A stretch of DNA of 44,451 nucleotides from Polyangiaceae bacterium (lineage in GTDB: Bacteria; Myxococcota_A; Polyangia; Polyangiales; Polyangiaceae), in contig JAPYTK010000006.1 of the NCBI GenBank assembly GCA_029941785.1, forward strand, positions 1-44,451. Reading direction: 5' to 3'. Numbering within the stretch: position 1 is the first letter of the stretch; the number at the start of each line of letters is the position of its first letter. This document shows, piece after piece, positions 28,382 to 34,632 of this stretch. The notes below the pieces were generated by a model that saw nothing but the letters and a program-made list of their open reading frames with translations, was not told the DNA's origin and searched no databases. A program made the position numbers and the translations under genes.

Positions 28382-29077
28382 TCAGGTGCCGATGACCTTG
28401 CCCTTGCGCGGCAAAACCTCGCCTTTGAAGATCCACACTTTGATGCCGATCATGCCGGTCTTCGTACGAGCCTCGGCGAGGCCGAACTCGATGTCCGCGC
28501 GCAGCGTGTGAAGAGGCACGCGACCCTCGCGGTAGGTCTCGATGCGGGACATGTCCGAACCGCCGAGACGCCCGGCACAGCGAATGCGAATGCCCTTCGC
28601 GCCAAACTTCATGGCAATCGCGACGGCCTTCTTCATCGCCCGACGGAAAGCGATACGACGCTCGAGCTGAGCACCGACGTTCTCCGCGACGAGCTGAGCA
28701 TTGGTCTCGGCTTTGCGCACTTCCTGAACGTCGATGAGCACCTCGTTCTCCGTGAAGGAGCTGACGCCTGGGAACTTCTTCTCGTCCCCAGTGGCCGAGG
28801 TCATGTTGCCCGTTTGAAGCGTCTCGATGCCTTTGCCACCTTTGCCGATGACCATGCCCGGTCGTGCGGTGTAGACGAGCACTTTGGCACGATTAGCAGC
28901 ACGCTCAATTTCAACACTGGCGATGCTAGCGTTGTAGAGGTACTTCTTGATCGCGCGTTTGATACGAATGTCCTCGTGCAGCCACTTACGATACTGCGGA
29001 CCACTCTCGTACCACTTGCTGTTCCACGTCTTGATGACGCCGAGGCGGAAGCCGATGGGGTGGGTCTTCTGTCCCAT
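28382..29077 (-). CDS. rpsC: 30S ribosomal protein S3
   Basis: A 231-residue S3. It begins [20 protein letters not shown], has the KH-domain motif [16 protein letters not shown], and the C-terminal domain with [21 protein letters not shown]3 forms part of the mRNA entry site. It starts 39 nt after rplV. Confidence 0.97.
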
Positions 29078-29116
29078 AGAATCTAATGATCTCCAGAAAG
29101 GTGAGGACGCTGAGCG

Positions 29117-29461
29117 CTAGGCTCGGGTGTCCAACTCGATAGCGATGTGTGAAACGCCCTTGACGATGCGTGTGGCGCGTCCCATGGCGCGGGGGCGCCA
29201 GCGACGAAAGAAACGATCCGGGGCCTTGTCTACCGTCGCCTTGCTGATGAACAACGCGTCGACGTCGACGTTCGGATCCAAGTTGCGCGCGTTGGCCAAT
29301 GCGCTGTCGAGCAGCTGACGAACAATTCGTGCTGCGCTCTTGTTGGTAAACTGCAGAATCTGAATCGCCTCGGCCACGTCGCGACCGCGAACGAGGTTGG
29401 CAATGACCCGCGCCTTGCGGGGGGCGATTCTGCTGAATTTAGCGTTAGCCTTGCTGACCAT
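29117..29461 (-). CDS. rplV: 50S ribosomal protein L22 (first gene of the cluster)
   Basis: A 114-residue L22, whose beta-hairpin lines the exit tunnel. Conserved parts are RIAPRKARVIANLVRGRDV, LLDSALANARN and KAPDRFFRRWRPRAMGRAT. It starts at the ATG at 29461. In most bacteria rpsS precedes rplV in the S10 operon; here there is a 447-bp non-coding stretch instead, so transcription of this part must start just upstream. Confidence 0.97.
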   Translation of the reverse strand: MVSKANAKFSRIAPRKARVIANLVRGRDVAEAIQILQFTNKSAARIVRQLLDSALANARNLDPNVDVDALFISKATVDKAPDRFFRRWRPRAMGRATRIVKGVSHIAIELDTRA

Positions 29462-32275: not shown

Positions 32276-33940
32276 TCAGGGGCACTGGTTGAGAAACTGA
32301 CCGCAGGACGGCGGGGGCTGGCGACGGCGAACCCTCACGAGCGCCACCTTCTTTTCGAAGGGCGTGCCAGCCTCGATGTTCACCTTGATCTTCTTCGACC
32401 TGAAGCCGCCGCGAACGAGCACGACGGTGTGCTCGCCAGGCGACAACATGAAAGAATCGTCTTTGTCGGGACGAACTTTTTTGCCGTCGACGGTGATCGC
32501 GCCACATCTCGGAATACACGTGATGCTCACTTTGACATCCTCGGCCGGAGCAGCCCCGCCAGTCCCGTCCGGAGCCGCGCCGCCTGTCGCAGCCTCGGCG
32601 CTCCCGCTTGGCACTGCGGCAACCCCACCCCCGGCCTCGCTCGACTTCGTCGCGTCGGTGGAGGCTGCTGGCGCCGCGCCGCCGACCCCGCCGCTCGCCG
32701 CTGGCGCTGCCTTGGCATGGGCATCATCTTCGGTAACGGAGCCTGATTGCATCACGAAAAAGCCTGCGACCCCGCCCCCCAACAGGAGCGTCGCTACAAT
32801 GACGAAAATCACGGGCAATAGCGCCTTATTGGGCTTCTTCGCTTGCGCTGTGGGGAAATTAGGTAGCCCTGGAGTCGCGTGGCCGCCCGACACATCCGCC
32901 CCCGGCGGGTGAGGTGTGCCCGTGGCGGGATAGCCGTGCTGAGCAAAGGCATGCGCCGCTGGCGCTTGGCCTCCTCCCTGTGGATGGGCGGCCTGGGCCG
33001 GAGCCGCCGAACCTCCCGCCAACATCGCCGGATCGAACTCCTCTGGCAGGGCGAGCGTCCTGGCCGAGTCGCCCACGGGTGTACCCCCGAGCGCCGCGAG
33101 GGCCTGGACCAACTCGTCTGCTTGGCCGGCCCGATCGCCGATGCTAACCGCGAGACTCCTCAAGAAAACCGTGTCGAGCGCGGCATGGAGATTCATCCCG
33201 AATTCCTCGGCCCGCAAGGAAACTGGCGTGCGAGGCCCTAGCAATTCCTGCTGCCATGCGTTGAGATCGATGGGCGATTGATGACACGAGCGCCAGTAGG
33301 ACTGGCCCGTCAGAGCGAAAAAAGCCACGAGCGCGGACGCGAAGACATCCGTTGCTGCCCCGCCCTGCTCCGACGCCTGAAGCTGCTCGGGCGCCCACCA
33401 GGGAGCGCAGGCCGCATAAGCTTCGTGCGTTGGGCTGGTGCCACGAACAATGCTCACACCAAAGTCCATCAACCTCACCGAGTAGCTCGGCGCCGGTCCC
33501 ACAAAGATGTTGGTCGGCTTCAAACCATGGTGAAACAGTTGGTATTGCTGAGCCGCCGCAAGCGAACGCCCCACGCCCGTCATGATCTTGGCCACGACAT
33601 CAACGGACAGGGCGCCCGTGGATACGAGCTTCGCGAGCGAAGGCTGACTCAGCTGGGGCGTCACGCTAAATGGTGCAGCCGTGGAGGCGTCGTACCCTGC
33701 ATCGACGACATGGACGACCATGTCCTCTGGCAGAGCAGCGATCACCTGACGCACGCGGTCGAGCTTCGCCATCACGTCCGCGCGCTGTGCGATTGCCGAA
33801 TCGTAGAGCTTGACCACGACGTCGTTGCCCTGATGATCGCGAGCCGCATAGCTCGCCATCTCGCGGGTGAAAGCCAACAGGCTCGAAATCGTGTATTTGC
33901 CCGCGATCGTATGGCCGGCGGACAGGTGGGGCGCGGTCAC
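32276..33940 (-). CDS. Membrane pseudokinase with C-terminal PEGA domain
   Basis: A 554-residue protein from a GTG at 33940. The N-terminal 280 residues have a Ser/Thr-kinase fold, but key residues are lost: no glycine loop (LAFTREMASYAARD) and the catalytic motif reads HHGLKPTN, with G139 in place of the catalytic Asp. The ATP lysine (K44) and DFG (D159) remain. A low-complexity linker (about 300-375), a transmembrane helix (about 380-402), an Ala/Gly-rich periplasmic stretch and a PEGA domain (about 470-530, VDGKKVRPDKDDSF then PGEHTVVL) follow. Probably a catalytically dead signalling or scaffold protein. It is co-translated with the upstream lipoprotein (4-nt GTGA overlap). Confidence 0.88.
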   Translation of the reverse strand: MTAPHLSAGHTIAGKYTISSLLAFTREMASYAARDHQGNDVVVKLYDSAIAQRADVMAKLDRVRQVIAALPEDMVVHVVDAGYDASTAAPFSVTPQLSQPSLAKLVSTGALSVDVVAKIMTGVGRSLAAAQQYQLFHHGLKPTNIFVGPAPSYSVRLMDFGVSIVRGTSPTHEAYAACAPWWAPEQLQASEQGGAATDVFASALVAFFALTGQSYWRSCHQSPIDLNAWQQELLGPRTPVSLRAEEFGMNLHAALDTVFLRSLAVSIGDRAGQADELVQALAALGGTPVGDSARTLALPEEFDPAMLAGGSAAPAQAAHPQGGGQAPAAHAFAQHGYPATGTPHPPGADVSGGHATPGLPNFPTAQAKKPNKALLPVIFVIVATLLLGGGVAGFFVMQSGSVTEDDAHAKAAPAASGGVGGAAPAASTDATKSSEAGGGVAAVPSGSAEAATGGAAPDGTGGAAPAEDVKVSITCIPRCGAITVDGKKVRPDKDDSFMLSPGEHTVVLVRGGFRSKKIKVNIEAGTPFEKKVALVRVRRRQPPPSCGQFLNQCP

Positions 33941-34632
33941 TGCGAACTCGCCTCGCTGTCGTCCGCCTCTTCCGGCGTATCTTCCGATTGGGCAGACTCA
34001 GCCTTACCTTCGCGGATCGACAGAATCGCTGCGAAGACCGCCTTGGTGCTGTCTCCGTCGTCCTTGCCGGCAAAACCAAATCCGAAGATGTTCTTTTCTT
34101 CGAGCGGGATGGATACAACGAGGATGGCTCCCCGCACGTCATCACCGTCCTCGACCGGACGCGTCGCGCCAGGCCGCTGCCACAGCGACGCCTCCACACC
34201 CACGATCTCTTTTCGGATAGTCGGCACGGACAACAACACTTGTCGGCGTCTCGGCTTCACGGACACCAGTTCAGCGAGCTCTTTGATCTTGTCGGCCCGC
34301 TGCTTGGTGAGCTTGAAAGCCGGCTCCACGGGGGTGATCGCGGTCAAGACGACCACCCCGCCACTCGCTGAGGTGGCGATCAACGCCGCGTCCGTCTGCG
34401 CGTACGTCCAGCCCGGCGGCGGGGTCGCTACATAGGGAACCCCTGGAATGCGGGCCTTGGTCGACGATGTCGCCTTGCAATTCTCCTCCAACGACTCGCA
34501 CTTCGGCGGCGGAGGTGGCGGAGGTGGTGGCTCAGGCGCCTCCACCGGTTTGGGTTTCCGGGGAGGAGGGCCGCACGCGAGGAAAGCGTTGGCTACAAGG
34601 CCCAGCGTCAAGATGGCAGAGATGCGTCGCAT
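33937..34632 (-). CDS. Proline-rich lipoprotein coupled to pseudokinase
   Basis: A 231-residue protein starting MRRISAILTLGLVANAFLAC, which looks like a lipoprotein signal ending at C20. A polyproline stretch (36-43) is followed by a compact domain (about 60-205) with GVPYVATPPPGWTYAQ; the C-terminus is very acidic. I do not recognise a family. Its stop overlaps the pseudokinase GTG, so the two are made together. Confidence 0.75.
   Translation of the reverse strand: MRRISAILTLGLVANAFLACGPPPRKPKPVEAPEPPPPPPPPPKCESLEENCKATSSTKARIPGVPYVATPPPGWTYAQTDAALIATSASGGVVVLTAITPVEPAFKLTKQRADKIKELAELVSVKPRRRQVLLSVPTIRKEIVGVEASLWQRPGATRPVEDGDDVRGAILVVSIPLEEKNIFGFGFAGKDDGDSTKAVFAAILSIREGKAESAQSEDTPEEADDSEASSQ

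Follow-up and report, generated by a model that had tools for sequence, protein, structure and literature searches.

A lipoprotein gene and the kinase-like gene that it overlaps form a conserved two-gene module on the stretch of DNA that we analyzed (44,451 nucleotides of a Polyangiaceae bacterium, contig JAPYTK010000006.1; hereafter the window), and their products, a pair that evolution has kept intact, probably relay a signal or form a tether across the envelope without enzymatic activity. The positions of both genes and of the features discussed here are collected in Table 1. AlphaFold2 (AF2) lays out the 554-aa kinase-like protein as a confidently modeled kinase domain, a disordered linker, one transmembrane (TM) helix (residues 372–397) and a beta domain (residues 468–534). 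Lysines precede the TM helix on the kinase side, which suggests a cytoplasmic location for the kinase domain and a periplasmic one for the beta domain.

Table 1 Features of the pseudokinase–lipoprotein module in the window.
Feature	Position	Strand	Basis and remarks
PEGA pseudokinase gene	32276..33940	(-)	554 aa, GTG start; ORF and translation; V/M-[TS]-A-P start common to 30 orthologs
Protein-kinase-like domain, residues 10-289	33074..33913	(-)	Pfam Pkinase 52.9 bits; AF2 model; PknA similarity
Catalytic loop HHGLKPTN	33509..33532	(-)	G139 codon at 33524-33526, the HRD Asp position
Transmembrane helix, residues 372-397	32750..32827	(-)	AF2 helix and sequence
PEGA-like domain (probably periplasmic), residues 468-534, with C475 and C479	32339..32539	(-)	PF08308 in 20/30 orthologs; model
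C-terminal Cys tail CGQFLNQC (C546, C553)	32282..32305	(-)	Both Cys invariant
Lipoprotein gene	33937..34632	(-)	231 aa, lipobox Cys20; 4-bp overlap with pseudokinase gene
C45-x6-C52 acidic loop of lipoprotein	34477..34500	(-)	Both loop Cys invariant in 29 members
Lipoprotein globular domain, residues 55-209	34006..34470	(-)	PsbP/Mog1-like fold, AF2

Catalytic residues of the kinase-like domain

The score of the kinase-like domain against Pfam Pkinase (PF00069) exceeds the cut-off of 31.7 bits and lies near the bottom among the 125 kinase matches of its own genome. The AF2 model of the domain, with pLDDT above 90 at most positions through residue 280, has a bilobal kinase fold that resembles PknA (4ow8; Z 28.0 over 263 residues, rmsd 3.1). 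Its catalytic loop reads H137-H-G139-L-K141-P-T-N144, with G139 at the position of the HRD Asp. The G139 codon (GGT) is one base away from an Asp codon (GAT); a sequencing error or recent decay was considered as the source of this residue and rejected, since 43 of the 46 modules described below (42 besides that of the window) have Ala, Gly or Ser here. All 30 close orthologs are among these 43, and the 30 tier-1 sequences (window included) have Ala in 22 cases and Gly in 8, never Asp. The three modules that retain the Asp (L130 and L133 with HRDLKPQN, L136 with HLDLKPTN together with DAG) are atypical in their P+1 and activation segments too.

The residues that bind nucleotide and metal are for the most part conserved. 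H137, N144 and the DFG Asp (D159) are invariant in the 30 orthologs, K141 of the catalytic loop is Lys in 29 of them, and the beta3 position is Lys in 24 (K44 in the window protein) and Arg in 6, all of the latter in one genus. The P+1 Thr (GT.xY.APE) is replaced by Ala in 29/30, the window included, and the position of the alphaC Glu holds V, I, T, Y or A in two profile alignments; loss of this Glu is less certain than loss of the HRD Asp, as E61 (E in 19/30) lies only two residues away. Measured by the residues of a competent Ser/Thr kinase, then, the HRD Asp and the P+1 Thr/Ser are absent, and the Lys of beta3, the Asn of the catalytic loop and the Asp of DFG are present. The preliminary description of this locus, which had reported replacement of the catalytic Asp by Gly with retention of Lys and DFG, is upheld on both points by the translation and by the family. 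It had also reported loss of the glycine loop; this holds for the window protein, in which the loop is degenerate (LLAFTREMAS), and fails as a family trait: because the orthologs of Sorangium and Polyangium keep GYGG or GNGG, the loss is lineage-specific. Among 20 weaker kinase matches that were sampled in the window's genome, L144, L146, L147 and L154 are also without the HRD Asp (HGALSADC, HGFLSPEV, HGSLNPSS and HGAIKLEN, respectively).

A missing HRD Asp is no proof of inactivity, as the pseudokinases SelO and SidJ, which according to the review of bacterial families catalyze other reactions, illustrate (PMC12599244). The domain might accordingly be active by an unconventional route that uses the three pocket residues still present (Lys, Asn and the Asp of DFG), be it as a slow kinase, by AMPylation like SelO or by glutamylation like SidJ, and K44, N144 and D159 are indeed under purifying selection in most members. 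We nevertheless consider such activity unlikely. A conserved alternative catalytic residue, which the preliminary description had named as an observation that would speak against a pseudokinase, was looked for in the aligned family and not found; no acid or base takes the place of the Asp at position 139, where only Ala, Gly and Ser stand in for it. Moreover, the alignment lacks the beta3 Lys in L126, L200 and L201 and the DFG Asp in L128, L200 and L201, and in L202 the whole domain is gone. What the pocket residues kept in most members would point to is nucleotide binding as part of the pseudokinase's mechanism.

Pairing and descent of the two genes

Relatives were found with an alignment as query; a query with the single protein returned none. 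Of 183 genomes in the order, 47 match the lipoprotein profile, with few exceptions once each, and a phylum-wide sample of 377 genomes contained no such lipoprotein outside families f1 and f6. In these scans the family occurred in no order other than that of the window. Named hosts include Sorangium cellulosum So0157-2, So ce26 and So ceGT47, Polyangium fumosum and Minicystis rosea, from which we infer that f1 corresponds to the Polyangiaceae and the order to the Polyangiales. One of the 47 genomes is cut by a contig end at this locus and was left out; in each of the 46 modules of the other 46 genomes a kinase-like gene lies directly downstream of the lipoprotein gene; in most cases the two overlap by 4 bp (GTGA) or are separated by a few bases. 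Two families and over 20 genera show this adjacency, with flanking genes that vary. Genes for a GSDH-like protein, an alpha/beta hydrolase, a histidine kinase and ribosomal proteins were considered as further parts of the module and rejected, being common to some relatives only. Ribosomal genes of the rpsC/rplV type lie downstream of the module at 28382–29461 of the window. Some other genera have shared genes at similar distances, which suggests that the location of the module is old. At one further locus (L204; G474:C715), two lipoprotein-like ORFs in tandem weakly resemble the family lipoprotein, and neither the Cys loop nor a kinase is present.

In a tree of kinase domains from which the Asp column had been removed, the family forms one clade (49 rows, SH-aLRT 99) whose neighbors are canonical kinases with HRDLKPEN. 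The presence of the Asp changes at least four times over the whole tree, with one change possibly outside the clade (L108), a count that is silent on direction. The kinase at L108:5252-6625 is a separate Asp-less one (HGALKPSN, DFA) that keeps the beta3 Lys, lies outside the module clade and has no lipoprotein. Within the module, dN/dS of the kinase domain is 0.05–0.50 over 11 pairs and below that of the linker in 10 of the 11; because of this purifying selection, we regard the domain as kept for function and not as decaying.

One genome (G389) has a second lipoprotein copy and, directly downstream and overlapping it by ATGA, a gene for a protein without a kinase domain (L202:1775-2970; G389:C353, minus strand), an arrangement seen once and in a draft genome. 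This protein has the TM helix, the PEGA-like Cys domain and a tail (CGTFINPCE), and a repeat (GVQGTMQLSxENMAEVQARxAAAIQQK) occurs twice in its cytoplasmic part. Also in G389 is a module (L201) whose kinase domain is without beta3 Lys, Asn and DFG Asp. Canonical sister kinases, Asp-less domains with an intact pocket (as in the window), heavily degenerate domains and absent ones form a series. The kinase-less version therefore identifies the lipoprotein together with the TM–PEGA–tail part as the core of the module. Phosphotransfer appears to be dispensable for the module, and the kinase domain, judged by its residues, most likely acts without it.

The claim of the preliminary description that a pseudokinase is coupled to a lipoprotein is well supported by all of this, namely by the absent HRD Asp, the purifying selection, the kinase-less version and the gene order, whose conservation had been suggested as a check. 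Adjacency by itself is, however, no proof of binding, and the two products could be merely co-transcribed envelope proteins that do not bind each other. Here the distance correlations are of note: the partial correlation (mirror-tree partial r) between lipoprotein and PEGA domain given the kinase domain is weak, at 0.15, as against 0.69 between lipoprotein and kinase domain given the PEGA domain, so that co-variation of lipoprotein and PEGA domain is not favored over that of lipoprotein and kinase domain. Set against mere co-transcription are the unbroken adjacency of the pair across genera and families while its flanks vary, and its persistence where the kinase domain is gone (L202). We judge that explanation, too, to be improbable.

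Probable periplasmic parts of the two proteins

The Pfam PEGA family (PF08308) finds its matches in the orthologs with a best E value of 1.4e-6, and the window protein itself falls below threshold; the ortholog matches and the modeled beta domain together sustain the PEGA domain that had been proposed from the window alone. C475 and C479 of this domain are invariant in a 26-row alignment, and both Cys of the C-terminal tail are invariant in 35 aligned family members, the kinase-less one included. In distant members (L125-L129 and L198-L202) the PEGA-like domain contains two additional Cys (CDxK...HxC). A profile of PEGA domain plus tail has strong full-length matches almost only in module genomes; alignments with the many other PEGA domains in these genomes mostly stop at about position 81–87 of the profile and score lower. 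The few strong matches on contigs without a detected lipoprotein (e.g. G437:C12) probably reflect split contigs.

By sequence, a signal peptide and lipobox (LACG), with a Cys20 that is invariant in 29 members, mark the 231-aa protein as a bacterial lipoprotein. Pfam has no family for it. Its AF2 model (pLDDT 86.4 overall) resembles PsbP (2vu4; Z 10.4, rmsd 3.7, 134 residues) and, further, Apa (Z 9.0), LpqN (Z 8.9) and DcrB (Z 7.1). The Cx6C loop is placed ahead of the globular domain, and pseudokinase and lipoprotein both have conserved cysteines in their probably periplasmic parts. The mean charge is +2.9 for the Cys tail of the receptor and −1.9 for the loop of the lipoprotein, with a neutral tail in the window's own protein; charge complementarity of tail and loop is only a lead. 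It would fit a mechanical or spacing sensor in which the acidic Cx6C loop docks on the generally basic Cys tail and bridges two envelope layers, the ATP-loaded pseudokinase signals engagement inward, and the kinase-less version is a tether only. We regard this sensor as a rather doubtful reading.

Proposed role and comparison with known systems

We favor, with moderate confidence, the explanation that the two genes specify one dedicated envelope complex in which the pseudokinase is a non-phosphotransferring scaffold that reports the periplasmic state. The lipoprotein would hold its PsbP/LpqN-like domain on a Pro-rich stalk at the periplasmic face of some membrane and would bind a single-pass receptor of the inner membrane at the latter's Cys-stabilized PEGA-like domain and tail. 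The cytoplasmic kinase domain of this receptor would transfer no phosphate, lacking the catalytic base and the P+1 Thr and probably also the alphaC Glu; ATP would probably still be bound, as K44, N144 and D159 are kept in most members. As a conformational scaffold, ATP-dependent or ATP-stabilized, the pseudokinase may then signal the bound state of the periplasmic side to cytoplasmic partners, possibly canonical kinases, with the signal presumably running inward. On the sequences, signaling or tethering across the envelope by the pair is plausible; the Asp-retaining modules (L130, L133 and L136, 3/46) count against the scaffold.

The pseudokinase could instead regulate one particular canonical Hanks kinase allosterically, as activator or as inhibitor, through the back-to-back N-lobe interface. 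The genome offers more than 100 Hanks-type kinase matches, and a charge pair of the orthologs (K/R at position 15 in 30/30, D/E at position 80 in 30/30) aligns with R10/D76 of PknB, which we take to be a dimer contact. The pair may, however, be an inheritance from ordinary kinases, and no partner was identified. Dimerization is also described for the MviN pseudokinase (PMC12599244), and we still consider a regulator of this kind quite improbable. A decaying kinase heading for loss, as the graded degeneration (L201) and the kinase-less copy (L202) might suggest, is very improbable given that in most members the domain is open and well folded and its dN/dS is low.

A 2025 review, drawing on a classification of more than 300,000 sequences, counts among 42 Ser/Thr kinase families seven bacterial ones that are rich in pseudokinases or consist of them, and describes their functions as largely unknown (PMC12599244). 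Compared by the family marks given there, the module kinase matches none of the described families that we checked; it could sit unnamed within one of the 42. Our search, confined to one literature library, found no description of the pair. ActPs3 (M. tuberculosis MviN) is similar in being a membrane protein in which a TM region comes after the pseudokinase domain, and in its scaffold role (PMC12599244). In ActPs3 proteins, however, all three catalytic motifs are lost and the activation loop carries a deletion, whereas module members mostly keep the Lys, the Asn and DFG; ActPs3 proteins belong to another phylum, and the account of them describes no dedicated lipoprotein. EssB/YukC of T7SSb is likewise a pseudokinase that spans the membrane once and serves a structural rather than a catalytic role (PMC12599244), but has all three motifs degraded, is bound to a secretion system of Firmicutes and is described there without a PEGA domain and without a lipoprotein partner.

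The other families differ in the marks that the review gives. GLW pseudokinases have GLW for HRD and Leu/Trp for the beta3 Lys, where the window protein has HHG and K44; DLHK pseudokinases keep the HRD Asp, have a degraded beta3 Lys and DFG and lack a TM helix, the opposite of the window protein with its predicted helix; and DYD kinases combine a DYD motif with a beta3 Arg, as against DFG and K44. CP1 pseudokinases are soluble, COG3899-linked and without a TM helix, whereas the window protein has a predicted TM helix and, by Pfam, no COG3899 domain. ActPs1 and ActPs2, judged by their group heading only, diverge in all three motifs, whereas K44 and DFG of the window protein are canonical.

PknB-type receptor kinases share the order of kinase domain, linker, one TM helix and extracytoplasmic domain and, with PknA, the closest kinase fold, but PknB is active and has PASTA repeats, whereas the module protein is without the HRD Asp and P+1 Thr and has a PEGA-like outer domain with a Cys tail. 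The canonical sister kinases (L132 and L135) resemble it in N-terminus, linker–TM–outer-domain layout, C-x-P/S-x-C-D motif and cysteines near the C-terminus; they differ in having HRDLKPEN, GSPLWVAPEQ and an intact alphaC Glu, and the family lipoprotein is not adjacent. The module lipoprotein has the fold of PsbP/Mog1-like proteins (LpqN, DcrB, Apa) at about 8–21% identity, with the invariant Cx6C loop and the Pro-rich stalk as extras. EcpK of Myxococcus xanthus is also a myxobacterial pseudokinase proposed to be a scaffold that acts by binding (PMC12004946), but is of the bacterial tyrosine kinase type, not the Hanks type, and has another partner. No family that we checked, as marked in these sources, combines loss of the Asp, kept ATP and metal motifs and a fixed lipoprotein partner. 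With its gene partner, Asp-retaining relatives, canonical sister kinases and kinase-less version, the module offers a comparison set for the role of a pseudokinase domain.
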